Assembly: GCF_030817355.1 (NCBI RefSeq)
Contig: NZ_JAUSZH010000001.1
Coordinates: forward strand, 6,644,501-6,708,500
Source of the DNA: Streptomyces sp. V1I1
Lineage (GTDB): Bacteria > Actinomycetota > Actinomycetes > Streptomycetales > Streptomycetaceae
Length of the DNA: 64,000 bases
Reading direction: 5' to 3'
Shown here: positions 7,822 through 25,995 of the stretch, piece after piece
How the letters are laid out: each line of letters starts with the position of its first letter
Position numbering within the stretch: the first letter of the stretch is position 1
Program-made: the position numbers and the translations under genes
The notes under the pieces: generated by a model
The model's input: the letters and a program-made list of their open reading frames with translations, nothing else
What the model was told of the DNA's origin: nothing
The model's database searches: none

Positions 7822-8307
7822 GTGAAACGCATTGGAGTGACCGGCCACCGAGGAATCCCTCCCGAGGCCTACGCCCATATCCGCGCCGGAATGCACGCCG
7901 TGCTCTGCGGCCACGACGGCTCGATGGAGGCCCTGTCCAGCCTCGCGGCCGGAGCCGATCAGCTCTTCGCAGACATCGCCCTGGCCTGCGGCGCGGAGCT
8001 GACCGTGGTCATCCCCAGCGGGAACTACGAGGACGGCTTCACGGCCCCCGACGAGCTGGCCCGCTACCAGCGCCTCAAGGGCCGGGCCACCCGGGAGATC
8101 AAGCTCGCCTTCCCGTACTCCACCGACGAGGCCTACTACGCGGCAGGCGCCTACATCGCCGACAACTGCGACCGCCTTCTGGCGGTCTGGGACGGCCGTC
8201 CCGCCCGTGGCTACGGCGGCACGGCCGACATCGTCCGCTACGCACGCGATCTCGGAAAGCCCGTGACGGTCATCTGGCGCGACGGCCTTGAGCGCCACTG
8301 GATCTGA
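7822..8307 (+). CDS. SLOG-type Rossmann-fold nucleotide-binding protein
   Basis: 161-residue protein of the DprA/LOG (SLOG) class, which binds nucleotides or nucleotide-derived signals. Visible hallmarks are the N-terminal strand and loop RIGVTGHRGI, the second loop SSLAAGADQLFA, and the C-terminal VWDGRPARGYGGTADIV, which corresponds to the G-G-T phosphate-binding turn of the superfamily. GTG start chosen because GGGGAG lies about 10 bases upstream and the conserved strand begins at once; an earlier TTG at 7771 is possible. Its end lies only 7 bases from the end of the convergent SLATT-domain gene. SLOG proteins paired with SLATT membrane proteins are predicted sensors in nucleotide-signalling conflict systems; function here is inference. 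Confidence 0.7.
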   Translation: MKRIGVTGHRGIPPEAYAHIRAGMHAVLCGHDGSMEALSSLAAGADQLFADIALACGAELTVVIPSGNYEDGFTAPDELARYQRLKGRATREIKLAFPYSTDEAYYAAGAYIADNCDRLLAVWDGRPARGYGGTADIVRYARDLGKPVTVIWRDGLERHWI

Positions 8308-8314
8308 TCGGCCA

Positions 8315-9247
8315 TCAACTCCGGTGTCTTACCAGCCAGTCGGTGTGCTGAGGCGACACGATGCGCTCGGTCTCGTACACCGCTGACGGCCACTCCACAT
8401 CGCTCACGGTGGTCTCCATCGCCGTATGCATCGCCGCGAGGTCCTCCTCCACCAGCGAGTGGGCCGCGATGAGAGGTTGATGACGGCGTATCTCGCTCCA
8501 CGCCAGACACGCGGCCGCCGCCGAGGACAACAGCCCTGCCATCTCGACGGATTCGGCGAGCGAGAAGGTACGCAGCAGCGCGAAGAGCAGCGCGAGCAGG
8601 GTGAGCAGCCCGATCGAGGCGGACCACAGGACGGTCGCGCGGCGGGATATCTCCTTGCGGCGGTGGTACCAGTTGCGCTGCTCGATCAGCCGGTCCCTGA
8701 CATACGTCTCCTTGCGGACGCTGAAGGCCTTGGCGCGCAGCAGCCGCATGGGTGTGGTGATCAGCTCCCCGGCCGCCACCTCCGGCACGCTCGGGCGCGG
8801 GTCCTGCCAGCCGACCTTGGTCAGTTCCCGCAGCCCTTCCTCCAGCCGCACGGTGAACAGCTCGTCCGCATCAGTGGAGTTGGAGTCGAAGGGTGCTCCA
8901 TGGACCGCGTAGCGCCAGCACATCGACTTGATGAACTCCGCTGCGGAGCGGTTGAGTTGCCAATGCGACTTTGCTCTGCGCCTCGATGAGCGGTAGCTGA
9001 GGATCAGCACCCAGGCATACGCCAACGCGCTGAGTGCGCCGGGGAGTTGGAAGGTGTCGCCGAGCTTCAGTGACGACGGCAGCGCCGCCAGGGCCGCGCC
9101 GACGACCAGTAGCAGCAGCTGGTAGCGGGTGGCGCCGACGGCCTCGCGCTGGCGCGAGATGGCTATCGCGTCCGTGTGGTGGAAGAGAACCGGCAGATCA
9201 GTGTTTCTGAAGACCATGCTTTGCAGTGGGCCGGGAAACACGGTCAT
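8315..9247 (-). CDS. SLATT/DUF4231-like membrane protein
   Basis: 310-residue protein with two membrane hairpins: residues about 40-85 (LLLLVVGAALAAL and LSALAYAWVLILSY) and about 210-260 (SIGLLTLLALLFALL and GLLSSAAAACLAW), with a soluble central region of roughly 120 residues. This layout matches the SLATT (SMODS/SLOG-associating two-TM) effector class, DUF4231 branch. Such proteins are predicted pore-forming or membrane-damaging effectors gated by nucleotide signals. The ATG was chosen over a GTG 30 bases upstream because AGGGG precedes it. Convergent with the SLOG gene and divergent from fxsA, across a 200-bp AT-richer gap. Confidence 0.65.
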   Translation of the reverse strand: MTVFPGPLQSMVFRNTDLPVLFHHTDAIAISRQREAVGATRYQLLLLVVGAALAALPSSLKLGDTFQLPGALSALAYAWVLILSYRSSRRRAKSHWQLNRSAAEFIKSMCWRYAVHGAPFDSNSTDADELFTVRLEEGLRELTKVGWQDPRPSVPEVAAGELITTPMRLLRAKAFSVRKETYVRDRLIEQRNWYHRRKEISRRATVLWSASIGLLTLLALLFALLRTFSLAESVEMAGLLSSAAAACLAWSEIRRHQPLIAAHSLVEEDLAAMHTAMETTVSDVEWPSAVYETERIVSPQHTDWLVRHRS

Positions 9248-9356
9248 GCGCACCCCTGTCTGCAGTTTTGTCTTCACTCTTTAGGCGGAATGGCTTGTTC
9301 CGTACTCTCCTGCGAGAATGCGATGCAACTCTTTTGTTCCGTCTCCACGTGCTGAG

Positions 9357-9384
9357 TTGCTGCGAGTGGCCATGAGAGTAAAGT
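9357..9384 (+). promoter_or_regulatory. Possible promoter for the fxs operon
   Basis: TTGCTG and TAAAGT hexamers separated by 16 bases lie 65 bases upstream of fxsA, in the AT-rich gap between the divergent SLATT and fxs genes. Pattern match only. Confidence 0.35.
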
Positions 9385-9448
9385 CGTGCCGCCGGCATCG
9401 CAACGGTGCGTGGTATCTGTGCTGGACACAACATCAAGGACGGCCCCC

Positions 9449-9613
9449 ATGACGTTTCAGACCTCCGCGTCCTTCGCGGCTGCGAAGAAGAACCGCGTTC
9501 CGCTGGCACAGATCGATGTGCGTAGCACCGATACCGCCAGGAAGCTGGCCCGCGTCCTTCCTGCCGCCGCCGATCGCACTCTGCGTGCTTCCACGTTCAA
9601 CTCGGCGCTCTAG
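9449..9613 (+). CDS. fxsA: FxSxx-COOH peptide (cyclophane RiPP precursor)
   Basis: 54-residue peptide ending in F-N-S-A-L, exactly the FxSxx-COOH signature of the family named for it. The N-terminal part (Lys/Arg-rich middle, RVPLAQIDVRS) is the expected leader, and the core is the last few residues. In this family the partner radical-SAM enzyme joins the Phe ring to the side chain two residues on, giving a three-residue cyclophane (known for the FxsB enzyme class; not shown here). Start fixed by AAGGA 8 bases upstream. It ends 9 bases before fxsB. The biological target of the mature peptide is unknown. Confidence 0.88.
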   Translation: MTFQTSASFAAAKKNRVPLAQIDVRSTDTARKLARVLPAAADRTLRASTFNSAL

Positions 9614-9622
9614 ACTGGCGGA

Positions 9623-11830
9623 ATGACTGGACCCCCGGTCCCATTCCGCGAGATCGTATTGAAGGTTCACAGCAGATGTGATCTTGCATGTGACCATTGC
9701 TATATCTATGAACACGCTGATCAGAGCTGGCGTACCCGCCCAAAGGCAATCTCTGACGATGCGATTTCCTGGACAGCTCTGCGACTGGCCGAGCATGCCA
9801 AGAGTCATGCCCTGCCCTCCGTGTCAGTGATCCTGCACGGAGGGGAGCCTCTTCTGGCAGGACCCGCACGACTGCGACGTATCTGCGAGGAGCTGACCGC
9901 AGCCCTCGACGGAGTGGCCGAGCTCGACCTTCGGATCCATACGAACGGCTTACAGCTCTCCGCGCGCTACCTGGACCTCTTCAGCGAGTACAACGTCCGG
10001 GTCGGGATCTCCCTCGACGGCGACCGAAGCGCGAACGACCGCCATCGCCGCTTCGCGGACGGACGCACCAGCCATCCGCTGGTCCTCAGGGCCGTCGAAC
10101 TGCTCCGGCAGGAGCGCTACCGCCACCTCTATCTCGGCCTTCTCTGCACGATCGACGTGGCCAACGACCCGATCGCCGTGTATGACGCGCTCACCGAGCT
10201 GGACCCTCCCCTCATCGACTTCCTGCTCCCGCACGCCACCTGGGACGACCCGCCGGCCCGCCCCGACGGCTCACCCACCGCGTACGCCGACTGGATCCTC
10301 GCCGTCTTCGACCGCTGGGAGGCGCAGGGCAGAAACGTGCCGGTACGGCTCTTCGAATCCGTGCTCTCCACGCTCGGCGGCGGCCCCAGCCTCACCGAAT
10401 CCCTCGGCCTCGCCCCCACCGACCTCGTCGTCGTCGAGACCGACGGGACCCTGGAGCAGGTCGACTCGCTCAAAAGCGCCTACGAAGGCGCGGCAGCCAC
10501 CGGATTCGACGTCTTCACGCACCCCTTCGACGACGTCGCCGCCCACCCCGGCGTCAGGGCGCGCCAGCTGGGCCTCGCGGGAGTCAGCGAGACGTGCCGG
10601 CAGTGTCCGGTCGTACGGTCGTGCGGCGGCGGGCTCTACACCCACCGCTACAGCTCCGGCAACGGCTTCGACAACACCTCCGTCTACTGCACCGACCTCG
10701 AGGCGCTGATCCGGGGCATCGAGCAGCGCACGGCCCCCTCGACGGTGTCCCCCGCGGTCACGGACCCGGGCGTGCTGATGGCCGAGCACCAGGACCTGAC
10801 CCGCACACTGCTCGCCGAGCTCCATCAGGAGCTCGACGGGCGGGGCGGCGAGAAGTGGGACGAGGTCTGGCAGCTGGCAGGCGCCCTGGAGGGGCACGCC
10901 GATGTGCTCGACGCGGTGTTCGGCCATCCGTACACCTACACCTGGCTGCAGGACACGCTGGCCGCGCTGCGGACGGGGCGGCCGGAGGCGGTCCCACTCG
11001 CGCTCCGGCTGGCGTCGTACCTCGCCGCGGCGGTCGTACGGGGCGGGCTCGACCTCCCCGTCCGGATGCCGTACCGGGACGGCAGGCTCTGGCTCCCCAC
11101 GCTCGGAGAACTGCGGCTGACCGGTCCCGGAGAGCCGGGCGAGGCCGAGGTGCGCCTGGCCGAGAAGGGCTTCCAGGTGCGGGTGGACGGACGTGCGCCG
11201 GTGCACGTACGCACCGACGAGGAGAGCGACGGCTGGCGGCCCGTGCGCACGCTCGGCGGCGACGGGGCGCCCGCACTGCGGCTCGACGACCTCGACCCGT
11301 ACCGCAACTGCTTCGGCGTCCCCGTACGGGAGCGGCTCGGCGCGGGCGAAGTAGCCGACTGGAGCGAGCGGCTGGCCGTGGCCTGGGAGCTGCTGCGGCA
11401 GGCCGCACCCGAACAGGCCACGGAGGCCGCGGACTGTCTCACCACCCTGACGCCGCTGGTCTCGGGAGAGCCGTCACTGGGCCGGCACGGCTACGGTGCG
11501 CTGGCGATCGCGCTGCCCGACAGCCCCGAAGAGCTGGCGCCCGCGCTGCTGCGCGGATTCAGGCGGGCGAAGCTGCACGCGCTGGTCGAGGTCACGGATC
11601 TCTATGCACAGGACGGCTGGTGGCGCCATCCGGCGCCCTGGCAGGACGAGCCCGTTGCGGCGTCCGAGCTGCTGGCCGGCGCGTACGAACGAGTGGGCCT
11701 CGCGGCCTTCGAACCGGCCGGCGCCGACCACGCCGAGCGCGCCCTGGAAACCCTGGAGCGCGCGGCGGAGCTGACCGCCGGCGGGCGGCGCCTGCTGGAC
11801 GAGCTCTGGAAAGAGGCCGGCCGTGGCTGA
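9623..11830 (+). CDS. fxsB: FxsB radical SAM/SPASM maturase with degenerate hydroxylase-like extension
   Basis: 735-residue peptide-modifying enzyme. Radical-SAM cluster Cys19-x3-Cys23-x2-Cys26 (CDLACDHC) reduces SAM; HGGEPLL follows at about 72. A SPASM auxiliary-cluster region starts at Cys325 (CRQCPVVRSCGGG) with a later Cys in NTSVYCTDL. Residues from about 385 to the end form a second domain resembling the alpha-ketoglutarate HExxH-type peptide beta-hydroxylase often fused to FxsB, but the motif position reads RGFRR (644-648) before AKLHAL, so the metal ligands are lost. This is the inactivated-extension form of FxsB. It is translationally coupled to the AAC(3)-like gene by an 8-base overlap. 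Confidence 0.9.
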   Translation: MTGPPVPFREIVLKVHSRCDLACDHCYIYEHADQSWRTRPKAISDDAISWTALRLAEHAKSHALPSVSVILHGGEPLLAGPARLRRICEELTAALDGVAELDLRIHTNGLQLSARYLDLFSEYNVRVGISLDGDRSANDRHRRFADGRTSHPLVLRAVELLRQERYRHLYLGLLCTIDVANDPIAVYDALTELDPPLIDFLLPHATWDDPPARPDGSPTAYADWILAVFDRWEAQGRNVPVRLFESVLSTLGGGPSLTESLGLAPTDLVVVETDGTLEQVDSLKSAYEGAAATGFDVFTHPFDDVAAHPGVRARQLGLAGVSETCRQCPVVRSCGGGLYTHRYSSGNGFDNTSVYCTDLEALIRGIEQRTAPSTVSPAVTDPGVLMAEHQDLTRTLLAELHQELDGRGGEKWDEVWQLAGALEGHADVLDAVFGHPYTYTWLQDTLAALRTGRPEAVPLALRLASYLAAAVVRGGLDLPVRMPYRDGRLWLPTLGELRLTGPGEPGEAEVRLAEKGFQVRVDGRAPVHVRTDEESDGWRPVRTLGGDGAPALRLDDLDPYRNCFGVPVRERLGAGEVADWSERLAVAWELLRQAAPEQATEAADCLTTLTPLVSGEPSLGRHGYGALAIALPDSPEELAPALLRGFRRAKLHALVEVTDLYAQDGWWRHPAPWQDEPVAASELLAGAYERVGLAAFEPAGADHAERALETLERAAELTAGGRRLLDELWKEAGRG

Positions 11831-12599
11831 GGGCGGGCGCGGCCGCGGGCTGGCCCAAACGCTGCGCGGGCTGGGCGTACAGGACGGCATGACGCTGCTC
11901 GTCCATGCCTCCCTGCGCGCCACCGGGCTGCGCGCCGACACCGTCCGCGACGCGCTGCTGGACGTGCTGGGCGCGGACGGCACACTGGTGTTGCCCGCGT
12001 TCACCATGGAGAACTCCGACACGTCCCACTCGTACCTGGCCCGGGTGCGCGGGATGACACCCGAGCAGGCGGCGGCCTTCCGGGCGGAAATGCCGGCCTT
12101 CGACGCCGCGGCCAGCCCGAGTCAGGGGATGGGCCGGTTGGCCGAGTCCGTGCGCACCGCCGAGGGGGCCGTGCGCAGTAACCATCCGCAGACCTCTTTC
12201 ACGGCGCTGGGGCGGCGGGCAGCGGAACTCCTCTCCCCGCATCCGCTGACTTCCCATCTTGGCGAGGACTCACCGCTCGGCGCTCTCTACCGGGCGCGGG
12301 CACAGGTGTTGATGATCAATGTGGATTTCGCCGTCTGCACCGCATTCCATCTCGCCGAATATCGCACCGGATCGCCTCTGCGCACCTACCGTTGTGTGGT
12401 GCAGCGACCTGGCGGGGGTAAGAAATGGACGGAGTACGAGGACGTCGACCTGGACGACAGCGATTTCGACGCGATCGGCGCCGCCTTCAGTTGGGGCATG
12501 GAACAGAAGGGACAACTGGGAGGAAGGTCCGCAAGGTTGTTCTCGATCAAGGACGCGGTCGACCATGCGGAGAGCTGGATGACCGAAAAGCGGTGTTGA
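11823..12599 (+). CDS. AAC(3) family N-acetyltransferase-like protein
   Basis: 258 residues with AAC(3)-fold landmarks: LLVHASLRATG near the N-terminus, GTLVLPAFTM, the SNHPQTSFTALG segment and HLGEDSPLGALY that line the acyl-CoA and acceptor pocket. Classical members acetylate the 3-amino group of aminoglycosides, yet this gene is embedded in the fxs operon, overlapping fxsB by 8 bases, so a tailoring step on the FxsA peptide or another operon product is an alternative. GTG start. Resistance activity cannot be read from sequence. Confidence 0.8.
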   Translation: MAEGGRGRGLAQTLRGLGVQDGMTLLVHASLRATGLRADTVRDALLDVLGADGTLVLPAFTMENSDTSHSYLARVRGMTPEQAAAFRAEMPAFDAAASPSQGMGRLAESVRTAEGAVRSNHPQTSFTALGRRAAELLSPHPLTSHLGEDSPLGALYRARAQVLMINVDFAVCTAFHLAEYRTGSPLRTYRCVVQRPGGGKKWTEYEDVDLDDSDFDAIGAAFSWGMEQKGQLGGRSARLFSIKDAVDHAESWMTEKRC

Positions 12600-12711
12600 C
12601 TGACTGAACGTCGGGGAGATGGAGTGTGTCGGGCTCCGGAATGATTAATTCGCTCGCATCTCTCATCGATGCCGGGTGCCGGGGCGGGCGTTCGCACAGG
12701 ACGGGGGTCGT

Positions 12712-14052
12712 GTGGCAGATTTAGCGCAGCGAGCGGCGGACCATCGGCCGTACTTCTTTCTCAGTTATGCGCACACGCCGCGGTACGGGGCCGGGGGCCC
12801 CGACCCGGACATGTGGGTGGAGCGGCTCTTCCGCGATCTGTGCGGCCATGTAATGGCCATGACCGATCTGCCGGCCGGTGCTCCAGCAGGGTTCATGGAC
12901 CGGGAGATCCGCTCGGGGGAGGGCTGGTCGGAGCGTCTGGGTGAAGTACTGGCCACCTGCCGGGTGTTCGTGCCCCTGTTCTCGCCGCGGTACTTCGCCA
13001 GCGAGATGTGCGGCAAGGAGTGGTACGCCTTCGCCCAGCGGGCGATCTACCACCAGGCCAAGAGCAACAGGCCCGCGGAGGCGATAGTGCCCGCGCTGTG
13101 GGTGCCGATGCCGCCGGAGCAACTTCCGGGCCCTGCCGAGCGGTTGCAGTTCAACCACCGGGCCTTCGGCGACCGCTACGTCACCGACGGCCTCTACGGG
13201 CTGATCAAACTCCGGATATTCGCAGAGGAGTACGAGGCCGCCGTCTATGAACTCGCCAAACGCATTGTCAGCGTCGCCGACACTACGCGCGTCGGCTCGG
13301 GCAGCCCCGTCGACTACCGGCAGGCGCCCAGCGCCTTCGGCAAGCCCACCGGCGGCCCCCGCCCGATGCATGTGACCGTCGCCGCGCCCACCAGTCACGA
13401 GCTGCCCGAAGGCCGCACACCCGACTACTACGGCAAGCAGTCCCAGGACTGGAATCCGTACCACCCGGACTCGGCACGGCCGTTGGCGTACGTGGCCCAG
13501 GACCTGGTGCGCTCGCTCAACTACCAGGCGACGGTCTCCTCGTTCGACCATGAGTCGCCGCCCGATCTGAGCCAGCCACCCACCCGGCCCGAGATACTTC
13601 TCGTCGACCGCTGGGCGCTGGAGGACGAGGACCGGCGCCAGCGGCTCGCCGACTTCGACGCGGAGCCGCGCCCCTGGGTGAGCGTCGTCGTCCCCTGGAA
13701 CCGCGACGACCCGCAGAGCCGGGTGTCCGAGGCCGAGCTGGTCCAGAAGCTGGAGCGCACGATGCCCCACCAGATGCGCCAGGGCCGCGCCGCCTGCCGG
13801 GCCGCTGCCAGAGGCGTGCTCAGCATGGAGGCATTCGGCCAGATCCTGCCCCAAGTGGTGGAGTCGGCTGCCCAGGAGTATCTGCGGCACGCCGAGGTCT
13901 TCCCGCCCGCGGCGCCTCCGCCTCCCGGAGCCCGCTCTTCCGAACGGCCCAGGCTCCGCGGCCCGATGGCCGAGTACGGCACCACCCACTACGTCCCGAA
14001 CACGCGTGACATCGCCCCCGATGCGGAGGACACGGATGACGGCCAGTCGTGA
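12712..14052 (+). CDS. fxsC: TIR-like protein FxsC
   Basis: 446-residue protein of the FxsC family. The N-terminus PYFFLSYAHTPR is the TIR-like strand and loop; MDREIRSGEGWSERL and CRVFVPLFSPRYFASEMCGKEW continue the TIR/SEFIR-like fold to about residue 140, followed by a C-terminal half that starts near LAYVAQDLVRSLNYQ and looks like a second alpha/beta domain (WVSVVVPWNRDD). GTG at 12712 is preferred because the conserved sequence begins there; GTG at 12676 would add 12 residues. The 3' end overlaps fxsT by 17 bases. TIR domains often cleave NAD or serve as scaffolds in immunity; whether the catalytic Glu is present was not established. Confidence 0.85.
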   Translation: MADLAQRAADHRPYFFLSYAHTPRYGAGGPDPDMWVERLFRDLCGHVMAMTDLPAGAPAGFMDREIRSGEGWSERLGEVLATCRVFVPLFSPRYFASEMCGKEWYAFAQRAIYHQAKSNRPAEAIVPALWVPMPPEQLPGPAERLQFNHRAFGDRYVTDGLYGLIKLRIFAEEYEAAVYELAKRIVSVADTTRVGSGSPVDYRQAPSAFGKPTGGPRPMHVTVAAPTSHELPEGRTPDYYGKQSQDWNPYHPDSARPLAYVAQDLVRSLNYQATVSSFDHESPPDLSQPPTRPEILLVDRWALEDEDRRQRLADFDAEPRPWVSVVVPWNRDDPQSRVSEAELVQKLERTMPHQMRQGRAACRAAARGVLSMEAFGQILPQVVESAAQEYLRHAEVFPPAAPPPPGARSSERPRLRGPMAEYGTTHYVPNTRDIAPDAEDTDDGQS

Positions 14053-17000
14053 CGGACGCATCGTCACCTTCTATTCGTACAAGGGAGGTACGGGCCGCAC
14101 GATGGCCCTGGCCAACACGGCCTGGATACTCGCCGCGAACGGCAAGCGGGTCCTGGCAGTCGACTGGGACCTGGAAGCGCCCGGCCTGCACCGCTTCTTC
14201 CACCCCTTCCTCGACCCCTCCACGCTCGGCGCCACCACCGGGGTCATCGATCTGATCACCGAGTACGCCTGGGCCGCGACCAGCCCCGAGCCGCGCCGCG
14301 ACGACTGGCATCTCGACTACGCGCGCATCCAGCCGCACGCCGTCTCCCTCACCCCCGAGAGCCTCGGCTGGGAGTTTCCCGACGGCGGCACACTCGACTT
14401 CGTCTCCGCGGGCAAGCAGAACCGCGAGTATTCGGCGACCGTCTCCACCTTCGACTGGGACAACTTCTACGACCGGCTAGGCGGCGGCCATTTCTTCGAC
14501 GCGCTGCGTGAGGACATGAAGGCCAACTACGACTACGTCCTCATCGACAGCCGTACCGGCCTGAGCGACATCGCCGACATCTGCACCGTCCATCTGCCCG
14601 ACATCCTCGTCGACTGCTTCACCCTCAGCGACCAGTCCATCGACGGCGCAGCCTCGGTGGCCCGGCAGATCGACGAGCGGTACGGCGGCCGGGGCATCCG
14701 GATCTTCCCGGTCCCGATGCGTATCGACGAGGGCGAGAAGGAGAAGGCTGACGCCGGACGCGCGCTGGCCCGGCTGAAGTTCGACCGCTTCCCCACCGGC
14801 CTCGCCGGGGAGGACCTCACCGCCTACTGGGGCGCGGTGGAGATTCCGTACCGGCCCTACTACGCCTATGAGGAAACCCTCGCCACCTTCGGTGACGAAG
14901 CGGGCCTGACCAACTCCCTGCTCTCCGCCTTCGAACGGCTCACCGCCGTCATCACCGACCAGCGGATCACCTCGATGCCCGCCATCGGCGAAGAGGTCAG
15001 GCTCCGGATCAGGGATGCCTTCACCCGCCGCCGGCCCGCCCTGCCCGCCGACCTCTTCCTCAGCTATGTCGCCGAGAACCGCATGTGGGCCGACTGGGTG
15101 GAGTCCCTGCTCACCAGGGCCGGCTTCCGGGTCGTGCCACGCGACGTCTCGGTCGAACGGGACTCGGCCGACCCGGACGAACTCGCCGCGGAGAACGCCG
15201 CCCGCACCGTGGTGCTCCTGTCCACCGCATATCTCAAGTCCGCCCGCGCGGTGGAGCTCTGGTCGCGGGCCGCGGCCGAGGACCCCGGCGGCGGCAGGCA
15301 CCATCTGCTGCCGATCCGGGTCGGCGACGTCCGGCTCACCACCCCGTACATCGACCGCAACCCGGTGGACCTCTTCCGGCTCGACGAGGTGCACGCCACC
15401 ACCGCGCTGCTGCGCGCGCTGGACCGCCCGGTCCAGCTCCACGACAGCGCCTCGCCGGGGCCGCGCTTCCCCGGGACCGTGCCGAAGATCTGGAACGCGC
15501 CGCCCCGCAACTCCGGCTTCACCGGACGCTCGGTGGTGCTGGAGCGGATGCGCGACCAGCTCGGCGGCGGAATGGCGGTGGCCGCGGTGCTGCCCCAGCC
15601 ACAGACCCTGTACGGACTCGGCGGCGTCGGCAAGACCCAGGTTGCCCTGGAGTACGTCCACCGCTTCATGGCCGACTACGACCTGGTGTGGTGGATCTCC
15701 TCCGAGCAGCCCGACGACGTGGTTGCCGGACTCGCCGAACTGGCCGTCCGGCTCGGCGCCCAGGGCGGCGAGGACATGGCGGCCGCCTCGCAGGAGGCCA
15801 TCGACCTGCTGCGGCGCGGAGTGCCGTCCTCCCGCTGGCTGCTGGTGTTCGACAACGCCGACGACCCCGAGCAGCTCAAGCGGTTCTTCCCCCCGCAGGG
15901 GCCCGGGCACATCCTGGTCACCTCCAGGAACCAGACCTGGTCGCAGTACGGGGACGCGCTGCCGGTCGACGTATTCCTGCGCGAGGAGTCCATCGAGCAC
16001 CTCCAGCGGCGGGCCCGCGGGCTGAGCATCGAGGACGCCGACCAGGTCGCCACCGCCGTCGGCGACCTGCCGCTCGCCGTCGAACAGGCCGCGGCCTGGA
16101 TCGCGGAGACCGCCACACCCGTCGCCGCGTATCTGGAACAGCTCAAGGAACAGGCCGCAAGCGTCCTCGCGCTCAACCAGCCCCCCGGCTATCCCGAGCC
16201 GGTCGCCGCGACCTGGAACGTCTCCATCGAACGGCTCAAGGAGCGCTCGCCCGCCGCGGTGCGCCTCCTCCAGCTCTGCGCCTTCTTCGCCCCCGAGCCG
16301 ATTTCCGCGAACCTCCTCTACAGCAAGGAGATGATCGAAGCGCTCAAGCCGTACGACTCCTCGCTGCAGGAGAAGCTGGTGCTCGGCCGGGTCATCCGGG
16401 AGATCGGCCGGTTCGCGCTGGCCAAGGTCGACCAGGTCTCCAACAGCATCCAGGTGCACCGACTGGTGCAGGCGGTCATCCGGGCCCAGCTGACCGAACA
16501 GGAGCAGCAGGACGCGCGGCACGCCGTCCACCGGGTCCTCGCGGGCGCCCGGCCCGACGACGACGAGCCGATCGACAACCCCGAGACGTGGCCGCGGTTC
16601 GCCAGCATCTGGCCGCACCTCGGCACCTCAGAGGCCAGGTTCTGCAAGGAGCCCGAGACGCGCCGGCTGATGATCGACCGGGTGCGCTATCTGTGGAAGC
16701 GCGGCGACCTGAACGCGGCGTACACGCTCGCCGACGAACTGCGCGAGATCTGGCGCGAGATGCTGGGCAATGACGATCTGCAGTATCTCTACCTCCGCTT
16801 CCACCTCTCCAACATCCTTCGCTCGCAAGGCCGTTATGTGGAGGCCAAGGAGCTGGACGAGGTGACCCTGGAGCGTCAGCAGGCGGTGCTGGGTACCTCC
16901 CATCCGCATACGTACATGACCACCAGCGGTCTCGCGATGGACCTTGGCACCCTCGGCCAGTACGGCAGGGCGATGGAGCTGGCGACCGAAGCGCACGAGG

Positions 17001-17977
17001 GATTCAGCCAGATCTTCCACGAATCCCATCCGCGTACGCTCGCTGCCGCCAACAACCTGGCGCTGAATCTGCGCATGGTCGGCCAGTACGCGCGAGCCCG
17101 CGAGATCGACCAGGAGGTCTTCGACCGGCGCACCGAAGTACTCGGCACGGAGCATCCGTACACCCTCTCCTCGGCCATGAACCTCGCCCGTGACCTGCGG
17201 GAGGTCGGACGGTACGAGGACTCTGCCGCGCTGCTCAGCCGGACGTACGAGCTCTACAAGGAGCAGCTCGGCAGGACCTTCCCGGGCACGCTGGCGGCGG
17301 CCAAGAGCCTCGCCGTCTCGCTGCGCAGGGCCGGGCGGATCGAGGACGCGCGGCGGCTGACGACAGCCACCCGCAACCGCTATCGAGCCAAGTACACATC
17401 GGCCAACCCGGACTCGCTCGCCTGCGATCTGAATCTGGCGGCCGACCTGTTCGCGGCAGGGGAGCCGGTCGCGGCGCGGGATCTGGCGCAGGAAGTCGTC
17501 GACCAGTACATCAGGGTGCCGGGGGAGCGGCACCCGTACACCCTCGCCGCCGTCAACAACCTGGGCATCTTCCAGTGGGGCTGTGGCGCTCCGGAGGCCG
17601 CGGAACAGCTGCTGGTGAAGGCGTCCAGGACGATGCGGGAGGTCCTGGGCGAGAACCATCCGCACGCCCTGTACAGCACCATCAACCTCGCCAACGCGCT
17701 TGCGGATCTGGGTGGTCTGGAGGAGGCGCTGGAGATCGAGCAGCGGACCGTGAGCCGACTGCGCGAGGTACTGGGCTCGCACCATCCCGAGGTGCTCGGC
17801 ATCGTCTCCAACATGTCCGTCACGCTCGGCCTGCTCGGCCGCAAGGACGAGGCGGCGCATGTGCGGGCGGAAACTGTGGTGGAGCTGCAGCGACTGCTCG
17901 GTGAGGAGCATGCGCTGACAAGGATCGCGCGGGACGAGCGCAGGGTGCACCGCGATCTGGAGCCGCTTTCCGTCTGA
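14036..17977 (+). CDS. fxsT: FxSxx-COOH system tetratricopeptide repeat protein
   Basis: A 1313-residue multidomain protein. Order: MinD/ParA-like ATPase with deviant Walker A KGGTGRT (16-22) and VLAVDWDLEAPGL; a TIR-like domain from about 337 (LFLSYVAENRMWADWVESLL); an NB-ARC/STAND NTPase with GLGGVGKT (about 526-533), LLVFDNADDPEQL as Walker B and DLPLAVEQAA as the GLPLA-type motif; and a C-terminal array of about ten TPR units from roughly 880 on, each with H-P-x-T and NNLA/MNLA signatures of the kinesin-light-chain type. This is the plan of a STAND sensor: TPRs recognise, NB-ARC switches, TIR signals. GCGGAGGA precedes the ATG. Last gene of the fxs operon. Confidence 0.9.
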   Translation: MTASRDGRIVTFYSYKGGTGRTMALANTAWILAANGKRVLAVDWDLEAPGLHRFFHPFLDPSTLGATTGVIDLITEYAWAATSPEPRRDDWHLDYARIQPHAVSLTPESLGWEFPDGGTLDFVSAGKQNREYSATVSTFDWDNFYDRLGGGHFFDALREDMKANYDYVLIDSRTGLSDIADICTVHLPDILVDCFTLSDQSIDGAASVARQIDERYGGRGIRIFPVPMRIDEGEKEKADAGRALARLKFDRFPTGLAGEDLTAYWGAVEIPYRPYYAYEETLATFGDEAGLTNSLLSAFERLTAVITDQRITSMPAIGEEVRLRIRDAFTRRRPALPADLFLSYVAENRMWADWVESLLTRAGFRVVPRDVSVERDSADPDELAAENAARTVVLLSTAYLKSARAVELWSRAAAEDPGGGRHHLLPIRVGDVRLTTPYIDRNPVDLFRLDEVHATTALLRALDRPVQLHDSASPGPRFPGTVPKIWNAPPRNSGFTGRSVVLERMRDQLGGGMAVAAVLPQPQTLYGLGGVGKTQVALEYVHRFMADYDLVWWISSEQPDDVVAGLAELAVRLGAQGGEDMAAASQEAIDLLRRGVPSSRWLLVFDNADDPEQLKRFFPPQGPGHILVTSRNQTWSQYGDALPVDVFLREESIEHLQRRARGLSIEDADQVATAVGDLPLAVEQAAAWIAETATPVAAYLEQLKEQAASVLALNQPPGYPEPVAATWNVSIERLKERSPAAVRLLQLCAFFAPEPISANLLYSKEMIEALKPYDSSLQEKLVLGRVIREIGRFALAKVDQVSNSIQVHRLVQAVIRAQLTEQEQQDARHAVHRVLAGARPDDDEPIDNPETWPRFASIWPHLGTSEARFCKEPETRRLMIDRVRYLWKRGDLNAAYTLADELREIWREMLGNDDLQYLYLRFHLSNILRSQGRYVEAKELDEVTLERQQAVLGTSHPHTYMTTSGLAMDLGTLGQYGRAMELATEAHEGFSQIFHESHPRTLAAANNLALNLRMVGQYARAREIDQEVFDRRTEVLGTEHPYTLSSAMNLARDLREVGRYEDSAALLSRTYELYKEQLGRTFPGTLAAAKSLAVSLRRAGRIEDARRLTTATRNRYRAKYTSANPDSLACDLNLAADLFAAGEPVAARDLAQEVVDQYIRVPGERHPYTLAAVNNLGIFQWGCGAPEAAEQLLVKASRTMREVLGENHPHALYSTINLANALADLGGLEEALEIEQRTVSRLREVLGSHHPEVLGIVSNMSVTLGLLGRKDEAAHVRAETVVELQRLLGEEHALTRIARDERRVHRDLEPLSV

Positions 17978-18153: not shown

Positions 18154-19080
18154 TCACCTCTCGAGCAGCCACGTCAAGATCCGCGGCAACGCATGCAGCG
18201 CGTCGAAGTGCGCGGCGGTCGGTTCGAGTACGGTCGTCGCGCCCGGGATGCGCTGCGCCAGCCAGCGGGAGTGGCCCACGGGTGAGAAGACGTCCTTCTC
18301 GCCGTGCCAGAGCATCACCGGGCCCTTGATGTCGGCGGGGTCGAAGCCCCAGGGGCTGCAGAAGGCGAGTGCGTCGTCGATCCAGCCGTACGCGGAACTA
18401 CGCAGCGCCTCCTGGTAGTTGCGAAGCAGCATGGACCTGACACCCGCGTCCGACACCACCATCCGGTCGGATTCGGTCAGCTCCCTGCGCAGATCGTCGA
18501 GCAGCCGGATCGGGTCCTTCCTGATCTCGGCGGAGCGCAGGATGAACCGCTCGGTCAGCCCTGCCGGGTCGTCCGACGCGCTGGTGTACTCCAGGACATT
18601 GGACGCGGCCATGCCCTCGAACCAGTCGAGTCCGTCGGCGTCCCTGGGCGCGAGCGTCACCAGAGCGGCGGTACGGGTGATCCGCTCCGGCATCAGGGCC
18701 GCACAGGCCAGCGCGTGCGGTGCGCCGCCCGAGCGGCCCACCACGGCGAACCGCTCCAGGCCGAGCTCGTCGGCGATCGCCCGTACGTCCTGGGCGACAT
18801 CGGCGACGCTGCGTCCCGCCAGCCGGTCCGAACCGCCGTAGCCGGGGCGGTCGTACGCGATCAGCTGTGTGCCGCGCTGGTACAGCACCATGCCGCGCGG
18901 CGCCGGGCCCAGCCTGCTGCCGGGGGTGCCGTGCAGCAGGAACACCGGTCTGCCGTGCGGATCGCCCAGCCGTTCCACCATCAGATGCCGCCCGTCCGCC
19001 GTGCGCATCCGACGTCGCACTCCCGAGCCCCCTTCGTCGTAAGTGCCCCGTGCAGGCATGTGAGCCTTGGCATTCCCCAC
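18154..19080 (-). CDS. Alpha/beta hydrolase
   Basis: 308-residue (301 from the second start) serine hydrolase of the alpha/beta fold. Oxyanion loop FLLHGTPGS, AYDRPGYGGSD strand, nucleophile elbow G-R-S-G-G (VVGRSGGAPHAL), acid in HGEKDVFSP and catalytic His in AAHFDAL near the end. No signal peptide, so cytoplasmic; the substrate (ester, epoxide or lactone) is not readable. The frame opens with GTG at 19080; ATG at 19059, with AAGG just upstream, is an equally good start. It is convergent with fxsT and divergent from the SPFH gene. Confidence 0.85.
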   Translation of the reverse strand: MGNAKAHMPARGTYDEGGSGVRRRMRTADGRHLMVERLGDPHGRPVFLLHGTPGSRLGPAPRGMVLYQRGTQLIAYDRPGYGGSDRLAGRSVADVAQDVRAIADELGLERFAVVGRSGGAPHALACAALMPERITRTAALVTLAPRDADGLDWFEGMAASNVLEYTSASDDPAGLTERFILRSAEIRKDPIRLLDDLRRELTESDRMVVSDAGVRSMLLRNYQEALRSSAYGWIDDALAFCSPWGFDPADIKGPVMLWHGEKDVFSPVGHSRWLAQRIPGATTVLEPTAAHFDALHALPRILTWLLER

Positions 19081-21531: not shown

Positions 21532-24500
21532 GTGCGGGTGCCCGGGTTCACGCATCTGCACACCGTTTCCGGGTTCTCCCTGCGATACGGGGCCTCGCAC
21601 CCGGAGCGGCTTGCCGAGTGCGCCGCCGAGCGAGGCATGGACGCCCTCGCGCTGACCGACCGCGACACCGTCGCGGGCACGGTCCGCTTCGCGAAGGCCT
21701 GCGCCGAGGCCGGAGTGCGGCCGCTGTTCGGGGTGGGCCTCGCGGTCGGTGAGCGGGCGCGCAAGGAGGGGCCCACCGAGCGGCGGCGTACCCCGGTGCG
21801 CGGCGGCGCGTTCGTGGACGAGTCCGCTCCCCGTACGGTCTTCCTCGCCCGGTCCCGCGAGGGCTGGGCCGAGCTCTGCCGACTGGTGACCGCCGCCCAC
21901 GCGGCGGACGACGGCAGCCCGCTGCTGTCCTGGGACGACAACCACGGCGAGGGGCTGACCGCGCTGCTCGGCCCCACCTCCGAGATCGGCCGGGCGCTGT
22001 CCGCCGGCCGTCCCGACCGCGCGGCGAAGCTGCTCGTGCCCTGGCAGGAGCGCTACGGCGACCGGCTGCGCCTGGAAGTCGTGCACCACGGCCTCATGGG
22101 CACCGGACCCGGCTCGCTGCGGCACGCCGCCCGCACCCTCGGCTTCGCCGCCGAACAGGGCGTGCGGGCCGTGCTCACCAATGCCGTCCGGTACGCCGAC
22201 CCGGGGCAGGGTCCGGTCGCCGACGTCCTCGACGCCGCCCGCCGGCTCGTACCCATAGACCCGCGCAAGGGCCTCGACAGCGGGGAGCGCTGGCTCAAGG
22301 AACCGGCCGAGATGGCCCGTACCGCCGAGCGGGTCGCCGAGGCCGCAGGCTTCCGGCGCGACACCGCACACCGGCTGCTCGCCATGACGGAGGAGACGGC
22401 GGCCGAGTGCCTGGTCGACGCCGAGGACGATCTGGGGATCGGCGCCGTCCACTTCCCGGAGCCGCATCTGGTCGGCGCCGGGCGCCGCACCCCGCAGCGG
22501 GTGCTCGCCTCCCGCGCCGCCGCCGCAATGGTGCTGCGCGGCTACGACGGCCGCCGTGAGTACTGGGAGCGGATGCACCACGAGCTGGACATCATCGCGT
22601 ACTACGGCTACGCCTCGTACTTCCTGACGGTCGCCCAAGTCGTCGACGACGTGAAGAAGATGGGCATCAGGGTCGCGGCGCGCGGCTCCGGCGCCGGCTC
22701 GCTCGTCAACCATCTCCTCGGCATCGCGCACGCCGACCCCGTCGAGCACGGGCTGCTGATGGAGCGCTTCCTCTCCACCCGGCGCTCCGTGCTGCCCGAC
22801 ATCGACATCGATGTGGAGTCCGCCCGCCGGCTCGAGGTCTACCGCGCGATCATCGGCCGCTTCGGCGAGGAGCGGGTCGCGACCGTCGCCATGCCCGAGA
22901 CCTACCGGGTGCGCCATGCGGTACGGGACGTGGGCGCCGCGCTCTCCATGGACCCCGCCGAGATCGACAGGATCGCCAAGTCCTTCCCGCACATCCGCGC
23001 CCGCGACGCGCGCGCCGCCATGGAGGAGCTGCCCGAACTGCGCCAACTGGCAGGGGAGCTTCAGCGGGAAGGGGACAAGTACGGACGGCTGTGGGAGCTG
23101 GTCGAGGCGCTGGACGCGCTGCCGCGCGGCGTCGCCATGCACCCGTGCGGGGTGCTGCTCTCGGACGCCACGCTCCTCGCGCGTACGCCGGTGGTGCCCA
23201 CCAGCGGCGAGAGCTTCCCCATGTCGCAGTTCGACAAGGACGACGTGCAGGACCTCGGGCTGCTCAAGCTCGACGTCCTGGGGGTGCGGATGCAGTCGGC
23301 GATGGCGCACGCGGTCGCCGAGCTGCGGCGGGCGACGGGGGAGGAGCTCGACCTTGACGACCCGGAGCAGGTGGAGCCGGACGACCCGGCGACGTATCAA
23401 CTCATCAAGTCCACCGAGACACTGGGCTGCTTCCAGATCGAGTCGCCGGGCCAGCGCGACCTGGTCGGCCGGCTGCAGCCTTCCACCTTTGGTGACCTGG
23501 TCGTCGACATCTCGCTCTTACAGGCCGGGGCCGGTCGCCGCCGACATGGTGCGGCCGTTCATCGAGGCCAGACACGGCCGGACGCCCGTCCGGTATCCGC
23601 ATCCGGATCTGGAGGGGCCGCTGAAGGAGACGTACGGAGTGGTCGTCTTCCATGAGCAGATCATCGAGATGGTGAACATCATGACCGGCTGCGGCCGGGG
23701 TGAGGCCGACCGGGTGCGACGCGGACTCTCCCACCCCGAGTCGCAGGGGAAGATCAAGGTCTGGTTCGCGCAGCACGCGGAGGCCAGGGGGTACGGACCC
23801 GAAGTGATCGCCCGTACCTGGGAGATCATCGAAGCCTTCGGCTCGTACGGCTTCTGCAAGGCGCACGCGGTGGCCTTCGCGGTGCCGACGTACCAGTCGG
23901 CGTGGCTCAAGGCGCACCACCCGGCGGCCTTCTACGCCGGGCTGCTCACGCACGACCCGGGAATGTACCCGAAGCGGCTGCTGCTGGCGGACGCGCGGCG
24001 GCGCGGGGTGCCGGTGCTGCCGCTGGATGTGAACCGGTCGGCGGCCGCCCATCGAATCGAACTGGTGTCCGGTACTCCTGATCGGTGGGGGCTGCGGCTC
24101 GCCCTCTCGGACGTTCATGGCATCAGCGAGGCCGAGACCGCGCGGATCGAGGCCGGGCAGCCCTACTCCTCGCTGCTGGATTTCTGGCAGCGGGCCCGTC
24201 CCGGGCGTCCGGTCGCCGAACGGCTCGCCCAGGTGGGCGCGTTGGACGCCTTCGGCGCGAACCGCCGCGACCTGCTGCTGCACCTCGCCGAACTCCACCG
24301 CGGGCAGCGCGGTCCGGGATCCGGTTCGCGGGCGGGCTCGGGGCCGTACGGCAGTCAACTCCCCCTGGGCGACGGGCAGAAGACCGCCCCGGTCGGACTC
24401 CCCGACCTCGGCGACGCGGAACGCCTCAGCGCCGAGCTCGGCGTCCTCGGTATGGACGCGTCCCGCCATCTGATGGGGGATCACCATGCCTTCCTCAAAG

Positions 24501-25018
24501 AGCTCGGAGTGGTCTCGGCGCAGCGGCTGCGCGCGGCACGGCACGGGCAGACGGTGCTGGTCGCGGGCGCGAAGGCGGCCACCCAGACACCGCCGATCAG
24601 GTCCGGCAAGAGGGTCATCTTCACCACGCTCGACGACGGTACGGGCCTGGTCGACCTCGCCTTCTTCGACGACAGCCACGCCGCGTGCGCGCACACCGTC
24701 TTCCACTCCTGGCTGCTGCTGGTACGCGGGGTGGTGCAGCGGCGCGGGCCGCGCAGCCTCAGCGTGGTCGGCGCGGCGGCCTGGAATCTGGCGGAGCTGG
24801 TGGAGCTGCGGCGTACGGGCGGGCTCGACGCGGTCGCGGCGCGGCTTGCGGAAGTCCCGGAGAAGGAGGGGCCGGCCGAGGCTCCGGCGGACAGTGGCCG
24901 GCGGATCCAGCTGTCGACGGGCTATGAGCTGAACCCCTGGGCGGACCTCCAGCCGCCGGGTGAGGGGACCCCGACCGGACGGAAGTTGTGGCACCAGAGT
25001 CCGGGGAGCGCGGGATGA
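21532..25018 (+). pseudogene. dnaE2: Error-prone DNA polymerase DnaE2, frameshifted
   Basis: Alpha-subunit-type polymerase for translesion synthesis. PHP domain at the N-terminus (FTHLHTVSGFS, ALTDRDT), polymerase core with GSGAGSLVNHLLGI and the catalytic PDIDIDVES, then FQIESPGQR, YGVVVFHEQ, YGFCKAHAVAF and a C-terminal OB domain. The frame breaks at 23520: an extra A turns the expected SLFRPGPVAADM into SLLQAGAG and the first frame stops at 23655. Removing that A restores one 1161-residue protein. Not a homopolymer, so either a real mutation or a base-call error. GTG start after CCAGGAG; LexA-like box 50 bases upstream; ATGA overlap with the next gene. Confidence 0.88.
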
Positions 25019-25995
25019 TCCTCTACGTACGCTTCCGACTGGCCCCGGCGCTTGAGACGGGCGGGGTCGAGGCGGCGCTGCCCGCGCTGCTCGGCCTGGC
25101 CGAGGACATCAGCCCCGTCGTGCAGGCGCTCCCGCCCGACGCCGCGCTCATCGATGTCCAGGGCGCCGAACGGTACTTCGAGCGGGACGCGGCCCAGCTC
25201 GCCGCGCTGCTGCGGGTGCGGGCGCTCGCGCACTGCGGGGTGGACTGCGCGATCGGTGCGGGCCCGAGCCCGATGCTGGCCAGGATGGCGGCGCGGGAGG
25301 CCGTGCCCGGGACGACCCTGGTGGTGACGGACGACGAGACGGCCGGGTTCCTGGCCGACAAGCCGGTCGCCGCGCTGGACGGCGTCGGGACGGCGACGGC
25401 CCGCACGCTGTGCGCGTACGGCCTCGACTGCGTCGGCCGCGTGGCCGAAGCGCCGCTCGCCGTGCTCCAGCGGATCGTCGGCGCGAAGGCCGGGCGCGAG
25501 CTGTGGGAGCGGGCGCGCGGCATCGACCGTACGACTGTCGTTCCGAACGCCGCCGCACGCTCGATCGCCGCCGAACGGGCTTTCAACCGGGATGAGTTGG
25601 ACCCCGTACGGCACCGCACGGCGCTGCTCTCGATCGCCGAGGAACTGGGGCTGAGGATGCGCGCCGAGGGCCAGGTGTGCCGCTCCCTTACCCTCACCGT
25701 GCGGTACGCCGACCGGTCCACGACCACGCGGGCGCGCACCCTGCGCGAGCCGACCGCCCACTCCGCGGCGCTCACCGGTGTCGCGTACCGGATCCATGAG
25801 TCGCTCGGCCTGCAGCGTGCCCGGGTGCGGAGCCTGTCGCTGCGCGCCGAGGACCTGACGCCGGTCGAACGGGCGGCCCGGCAGCTGACGTTCGACCCGG
25901 CGGACGAGCGGGCGCGCAGGATCGAGGCGGTGGCGGACCGGGCGCGGGCGAAGTTCGGGCCGCGGGCGGTGGTTCCGGGCTCACTCGCCGCATAG
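25015..25995 (+). CDS. Y-family DNA polymerase-like protein (ImuB-like)
   Basis: 326 residues. The region GVDCAIGAGPSPMLARMAAREA and GVGTATARTLCAYGLDCVGRVA are the finger and thumb helix-hairpin-helix parts of Y-family polymerases, and the C-terminal RAERAFNRDELDPVR...RSLTLTVRYAD is the little-finger domain. The usual N-terminal D-x-D-x-FFASVE metal motif is absent (it begins MILYVRFRLAPALE) and the second catalytic S-x-D-E motif reads ALIDVQGAERYF, so it is probably inactive and acts as an ImuB-like adaptor recruiting DnaE2. It overlaps dnaE2 by 4 bases (ATGA) and shares its SOS promoter. No imuA homologue is next to it. Confidence 0.75.
   Translation: MILYVRFRLAPALETGGVEAALPALLGLAEDISPVVQALPPDAALIDVQGAERYFERDAAQLAALLRVRALAHCGVDCAIGAGPSPMLARMAAREAVPGTTLVVTDDETAGFLADKPVAALDGVGTATARTLCAYGLDCVGRVAEAPLAVLQRIVGAKAGRELWERARGIDRTTVVPNAAARSIAAERAFNRDELDPVRHRTALLSIAEELGLRMRAEGQVCRSLTLTVRYADRSTTTRARTLREPTAHSAALTGVAYRIHESLGLQRARVRSLSLRAEDLTPVERAARQLTFDPADERARRIEAVADRARAKFGPRAVVPGSLAA

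Follow-up and report, generated by a model that had tools for sequence, protein, structure and literature searches.

A SLOG/SLATT gene pair recurrently joined to FxSxx-COOH systems in Streptomyces and a second family: conserved linkage and a possible TIR-messenger, membrane-effector mechanism

Whether a SLOG/SLATT gene pair lying beside a complete FxSxx-COOH (fxs) operon belongs to it functionally, and what it would contribute, is the question raised by a locus of Streptomyces sp. V1I1, located in a 64,000-nucleotide stretch of contig NZ_JAUSZH010000001.1 (positions 6,644,501 to 6,708,500, hereafter the window). FxSxx-COOH systems are common, with the maturase FxsB above its profile cut-off in 93 of the 150 Streptomyces genomes (at least 90% complete) of our genus sample, and our literature search found no tested function for them. 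We found that the linkage of the pair with fxs is conserved in the genus and that it recurs in another family. We read the locus, with a probability of slightly under one half, as one functional unit in which an FxSxx-COOH system and a SLOG/SLATT effector pair would work through a TIR-messenger, membrane-effector mechanism.

Profiles were taken from NCBIfam, Pfam and PADLOC, and structure models from AlphaFold. A first-pass annotation of the window had described a complete, tightly coupled five-gene fxs operon, and profile matches and spacings bear this out: FxsA, FxsB, FxsC and FxsT all scored above their curated NCBIfam cut-offs (Table 1), and the wording on coupling is fair because the gaps, counted from the listed open reading frame (ORF) starts, are +9, -8, +76 and -47 base pairs (bp). 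FxsB carries a C-terminal extension of the inactivated 'lost HExxH' type (NF040587, 465 bits), and FxsT combines a KGGVGR-type ATPase with TIR_2, NB-ARC and TPR domains (Pfam) and matches the PADLOC candidate PDC-M28B. The SLATT gene, single copy in this genome, encodes a tandem protein above cut-off for NF033610 SLATT_3 (179 bits) and NF033634 SLATT_1 (96 bits), which also exceeds the Pfam cut-offs for PF18184 and PF18181. Four hydrophobic segments are predicted, with a putative pore or permeabilising role, and the model is all-helical (predicted local distance difference test score, pLDDT, 80.6). Fold searches with SLATT gave zero matches at E ≤ 0.001, which is not evidence for a new fold, and searching by sequence for SLOG or SLATT relatives with solved structures returned nothing useful. 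The SLATT family was reportedly named in a 2015 survey. The SLOG-like ORF matched no Pfam, NCBIfam or PADLOC profile, and the AlphaFold model of its 161-residue product predicts the SLOG superfamily fold; the SLOG alignment shows invariant GHR and GGT stretches, and nucleotide binding or cleavage is putative. The 7-base gap announced between the converging SLOG and SLATT genes is exact (8308-8314). The divergence of SLATT from fxs also holds, but the distance of 200 bases does not, the intergenic region between SLATT and fxsA being 171 bp long (9278-9448).

Table 1. Features of the SLOG/SLATT-fxs locus, in window coordinates.
Feature	Position	Strand	Description
SLOG gene (predicted YpsA-like fold)	7822..8307	+	GTG start, TGA stop, 161 amino acids (aa); proposed messenger reader or processor
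Tandem SLATT membrane protein (SLATT_3 + SLATT_1)	8315..9277	-	320 aa; proposed effector
Conserved block upstream of fxsA	9374..9409	+	GAGAGTAAAGTCGTGCCGCC ... GCAACGGTGC; aligned in 12 rows
fxsA precursor peptide	9449..9613	+	54 aa, C-terminus FNSAL; TIGR04268 44.5 bits (cut-off 28)
fxsB radical SAM/SPASM maturase	9623..11830	+	TIGR04269 591 bits
AAC(3)-like N-acetyltransferase	11823..12599	+	PF02522 240 bits; under NF033082 cut-off
fxsC, TIR-like	12676 (or in-frame GTG 12712)..14052	+	NF040588 236 bits, TIGR04276 227 bits; proposed messenger-making enzyme
fxsT, MinD-like/TIR/NB-ARC/TPR STAND protein	14006..17977 (in-frame ATG 14036 more likely the start)	+	NF040586 1049 bits; proposed sensor
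Alpha/beta-hydrolase (abH)	18154..19080	-	PF00561 73 bits; convergent with fxsT

In the genus sample, SLATT matched in 45 genomes and SLOG in 83. The linkage comparison covered every listed SLATT row but one (46 of 47; the omitted one was the second piece of a broken gene in genome G021), the best 80 SLOG rows and 143 of at least 150 FxsB rows (second pieces and weak rows omitted). Forty of the 46 SLATT rows were orthologue-like (44-100% identity), and all 40 have a SLOG gene beside them on the opposite strand in convergent orientation, the two genes being no more than 216 bp apart in 38 loci and 1.5 and 4.0 kilobases (kb) apart in the other two. For 39 of these orthologues FxsB is found within a distance of 7.8 kb, SLATT being placed upstream in divergent orientation in 31 and downstream in 8; in the exception, genome G055, a long FxsB (open frame of at least 700 aa) is 463 kb away from SLATT. 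None of the six remote SLATT rows (29-32% identity) was near SLOG or FxsB. Sorted by content, 38 genomes hold a long FxsB and SLATT, 13 a long FxsB only, 2 SLATT only and 97 neither, and any p-value on these counts would be too small because of shared descent. Among 180 public loci, the 80 best (L218-L297), which overlap with the genus sample, have SLOG opposite SLATT in 80/80 and both FxsA and FxsB in 78/80. In the remaining two, both from Streptomyces (L244:7371-11594 and L257:8965-11456), fxs is missing while SLOG and SLATT are retained together with an AAC(3)-like gene.

The majority of genus loci have the same address, in the order S1 protease, SLOG, SLATT, fxs and abH, and therefore the linked loci are not independent events. 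Such an address, at which the 39 linked loci represent few independent events and abH is likewise constantly present, speaks for hitchhiking, i.e. a SLOG/SLATT pair that shares an old, conserved block of synteny with fxs and is functionally unlinked to it. Shared descent alone is however insufficient, because the linkage persists through an inversion, a short-form fxs transfer and a union in a second family. The fxs operon is inverted within the shared frame in eight loci (L112-L119), placing SLATT 3' of fxsT, and in three others (L122, L199 and L200) the convergent pair lies beside a short-form fxs without abH, where FxsT is distant in the tree, yet SLATT groups within the fxs-linked clade of the SLATT tree. 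Of the 99 genus genomes that lack a long FxsB, two contain a SLATT orthologue, in both cases beside a short or contig-cut FxsB. SLATT presence on the FxsT tree takes 5 changes versus 17.5 in shuffles, and within the main clade the pair has been lost from L132. The SLOG/SLATT pair is an accessory to fxs and not a requirement for it. No alternative effector was seen among the upstream genes tested in pair-free fxs loci (AMP ligase, MaoC, XdhC, CoxG, P450, EamA, dioxygenase-like, CitG and DsbH-like), a scan that was not exhaustive.

The second union came from a class-wide sample of 344 genomes, with SLATT in 20 and FxsB above cut-off in 73, where genome G417 (family f15) has SLOG, SLATT, FxsB, FxsC and FxsT in this order on one strand. 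In a 200-genome sample of this second family, SLATT matched in 24 genomes, and a set of 13 full-length SLATT matches with at least 56% identity was retained (a 62-residue fragment of G516, at 56%, was omitted). Eleven of the 13 adjoin fxs, ten with FxsB and one (L327) with FxsC and FxsT only; L324 is truncated where its contig ends, and fxs is absent from L329. A SLOG gene, counted as present from 40 bits, was detected in 10/13. The layouts differ, with SLOG, SLATT and fxs co-directional in four loci, SLATT followed by fxs without a detected SLOG in two, and SLATT divergent from fxs in five, one of these without a detected SLOG. Because three second-family fxs loci keep SLATT without a detected SLOG, SLATT looks the more essential member of the pair. 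Near the lower-identity SLATTs of this family (L335-L342), fxs was not seen.

SLATT and fxs, with SLOG, were united at least twice separately. In a SLATT tree of 51 chosen rows, the two fxs-linked groups stand apart, the nearest relatives of the second being TIR-linked (L329, L335 and L210). A single origin of all fxs-linked SLATT rows was rejected by the approximately unbiased (AU) test (p = 9.8e-6), for a group defined from an earlier tree, from which 13 near-copies were omitted, and with long branches present. This recurrence in another family, on a separate SLATT lineage and in other gene orders, weighs against hitchhiking, which we consider very improbable. The presence of SLOG/SLATT near fxs in other genomes, on which the first-pass annotation had staked the link, is confirmed in the genus and public loci and extended to 11/13 second-family loci.

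Loss of the HExxH extension of FxsB was also considered as a correlate of the pair and rejected. In SLATT-bearing loci, the extension is lost in 37 long FxsB, all from the genus (37/37 long forms), and kept in L198 of the second family, four further FxsB being short or cut; loci without SLATT have it kept in 11, lost in 10 and short or cut in 4. The SLATT-linked FxsB of the second family keep HExxH in 10/10, therefore its loss does not explain the pair.

Beyond fxs, the same SLATT family is coupled to TIR genes. Of 21 SLATT loci without a FxsB neighbour (L201-L212, L329 and L335-L342), for which selected neighbouring ORFs were scanned (none for L338), nine have a TIR domain above the Pfam cut-off in a nearby gene. 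A ThsB_TIR gene is adjacent to SLATT in L204, L205 and L206, and a TIR gene is near SLATT in L201, L208, L212 and L335 as well as in L210, at a distance of one gene; L329 is the ninth. NACHT proteins occur near SLATT in L209, L341 and L342, and nine of the 21 have neither TIR nor NACHT among the selected ORFs, including L203 and L336, with weak deoxyribosyltransferase-like matches below cut-off, and L207, where a SLOG gene is present. The three loci with a tandem SLATT beside ThsB_TIR, from three other families (L204:9417-11043, L205:9397-10780 and L206:8739-10171), look from their sequences like a Thoeris-like pair in which SLATT would replace ThsA. At L329:7278-10821, in the second family, a free-standing SLATT, a 687-aa TIR protein and SLOG occur without fxs, and L201:238-16858 has vWA, FxsC-like, MinD/TIR FxsT-like, SLATT, vWA and tubulin-like genes in a row.

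Within fxs, residue conservation suggests that the messenger-making TIR protein is more likely FxsC than FxsT, which corrects an earlier interpretation. The putative catalytic Glu of the CxKEW motif of FxsC, which we take to be the NADase residue, is present in 40/40 rows from SLATT-bearing loci and in 15/18 others. At the matching position, the 41 linked FxsT rows show D 15 times and E 14 times, and 23 further, unlinked rows share no residue; KGGxGRT is conserved in 41/41 linked FxsT rows and the NB-ARC P-loop in 40/41.

The single-unit reading proposes that the FxsA peptide is matured by FxsB, possibly together with the acetyltransferase and abH, and that FxsT, as a STAND protein (signal transduction ATPase with numerous domains), would monitor this peptide or another cue and engage FxsC. 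The TIR domain of FxsC would convert NAD+ into an ADP-ribose-type messenger, which the YpsA-like SLOG protein may bind or process, either reading or destroying it, and SLATT would then permeabilise the membrane, leading to cell arrest or death. The recurrent association of fxs with SLOG/SLATT suggests such a signal-triggered membrane-damage response, for which phage defence would be one use among several. The recruitment of SLOG/SLATT at least twice, together with a TIR-associated SLATT family, gives fxs a specific predicted output, membrane damage gated by a messenger, and makes FxsC a specific enzyme candidate, and the linkage makes fxs function testable. If true, this reading would connect peptide modification with TIR immunity in bacteria. 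The first-pass interpretation is partly supported: its linkage of SLOG/SLATT to fxs holds, and an FxsA peptide that is guarded or a signal and is read by FxsT is hypothetical, as is a phage or survival phenotype. A more far-reaching form, which we find doubtful, would be a peptide-licensed immune system: cyclophane FxsA would be a guarded token read by an FxsT resembling nucleotide-binding leucine-rich-repeat receptors (NLR-like), token loss or alteration would lead to the FxsC messenger, then to SLOG and the SLATT pore, and SLOG/SLATT would be an exchangeable effector module. Such a system would be Thoeris-like and gated by a ribosomally synthesised and post-translationally modified peptide (RiPP).

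Comparison with known systems helps to place the locus. Stand-alone FxSxx-COOH systems (TIGR04268, TIGR04269, TIGR04276, NF040586-NF040588; PMC7159879) have the same FxsA, FxsB, FxsC and FxsT, including the AP-ATPase with TIR, TPR and a MinD-like domain described as inactive, and their peptide is predicted to be a toxin or a signal (PMC7159879, section 24). Our locus differs by its SLOG/SLATT pair and abH neighbour, which go unmentioned in the portion of PMC7159879 available to us, where SLATT appears only for GAP1 GTPase systems. Our literature search found no paper linking SLOG/SLATT to fxs, though an earlier mention may exist. The vWA-MoxR-VMAP ternary systems (PMC7159879) have the same FxSxx peptide, radical SAM and TIR/AP-ATPase proteins, and the L201 row described above places a SLATT relative among vWA, TIR and tubulin-like genes; vWA, MoxR and VMAP were unmatched in our locus proteins, with no dedicated VMAP search.

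Thoeris (ThsB TIR and ThsA) is alike in outline, with a TIR domain, a SLOG domain and a toxic effector in one locus, but here the proposed reader and effector are separate proteins, SLOG is free-standing, the effector would be SLATT, and a modified peptide and a STAND protein stand at the input. FxsC and FxsT match TIR_2 and not ThsB_TIR in Pfam, and the locus proteins have no SIR2 or macro match such as ThsA would give; the SIR2-SLOG protein ThsA is activated by cyclic ADP-ribose (cADPR) isomers, according to the accessible part of PMC11204291. No cGAS/DncV-like nucleotidyltransferase (CD-NTase, SMODS) match, as expected for a cyclic oligonucleotide-based antiphage signalling system (CBASS), was found in the locus proteins and two neighbours. 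In the text available from PMC9503650, phage TIR and SLATT genes are neighbours and SLATT is predicted to be a membrane effector regulated by derivatives of ADP-ribose (ADPR); our locus shares a TIR gene adjoining a SLATT gene and differs by its tandem SLATT_3-SLATT_1 protein, SLOG partner and fxs operon. DRT10, as covered in the available part of PMC12632851, is a tested defence system that requires a SLATT protein, deletion of its gene abolishing phage defence, but its input is a reverse transcriptase with a non-coding RNA (ncRNA), neither of which is present here.

The genomic setting bears on what the system would be used for. The defence island proposed at first pass is not supported, considering the single syntenic address of most loci and the lack of PADLOC matches in all ten tested of the 49 other called window genes (two S1 proteases, two luciferase-like monooxygenases, an SPFH protein, DnaE-like and ImuB-like polymerases, a lipase-like protein and two without match); gene calls in the window, like some others in this analysis, come from a simple GC-frame script. 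A mobile element is likewise unsupported: the phage collection gave no match, and the SLATT matches on plasmids (24 records) never covered more than 80% of SLATT length and had about 26% identity (25-27% among the 10 matches listed). The fixed address in most Streptomyces loci and these absences favour another use of the same machinery, a developmental or stress-related programme of cell death or membrane signalling and not phage defence, in which SLOG would destroy the messenger or restrain SLATT as an antidote. Transcription of SLOG against SLATT in 40/40 genus loci fits opposed expression of this kind, and some SLOG domains are suggested to degrade ADPR-type signals (PMC9503650, in its accessible part). 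On the other side, SLOG and SLATT are co-directional in second-family loci, and the 3/13 SLATTs without a detected SLOG there are awkward for a strict antidote; on balance, we regard this programme as unlikely.

Adjacency of a membrane protein to a peptide-maturation operon also fits a SLATT that, with SLOG, would provide self-protection against the FxsA peptide or export it, the TIR and STAND proteins regulating peptide production. A conserved upstream region common to the divergent promoters points the same way, but many fxs loci lack the pair and the same SLATT family stands with TIR genes where no peptide genes were found nearby, so that we judge this alternative improbable. In the block in question, a probable promoter or operator, GAGAGTAAAGTCGTGCCGCC precedes an imperfect inverted repeat that has GGTGC at its end. 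GTAAAGT[CT]G was found 71-97 bp before fxsA in only 12 of the 29 loci L091-L119, and therefore the block is a subclade marker and not a general one. Its pattern had one match in the genome at up to one mismatch, which is unremarkable because the reversed control pattern gave three.

The alpha/beta-hydrolase abH may be a further, unrecognised fxs component. It matched at E ≤ 1e-80 in 54/150 genus genomes. Of 61 abH rows, 49 are no more than 12 kb away from FxsB; conversely, 48 of the 58 long FxsB rows have abH at this range, 12 of these without SLATT. It also adjoins fxs in 9/11 second-family SLATT-fxs loci and in 5/5 fxs loci L213-L217. Other families thus have abH next to fxs too, whether or not the pair is present. 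The AAC(3)-like gene is optional, 22 of the 80 public loci having one. Two more FxsB genes above cut-off, both without SLATT, are present in the V1I1 genome (G000:C1:7500174-7501265, L143, and 3055297-3056385, L149). Elsewhere in the window (21532-25995), a DnaE-like frame stops at 23655 with its finger domain cut (77/166 positions) and is followed by an ImuB-like polymerase; L257 has a longer DnaE frame (1164 aa), and the window copy is a possible frame break.
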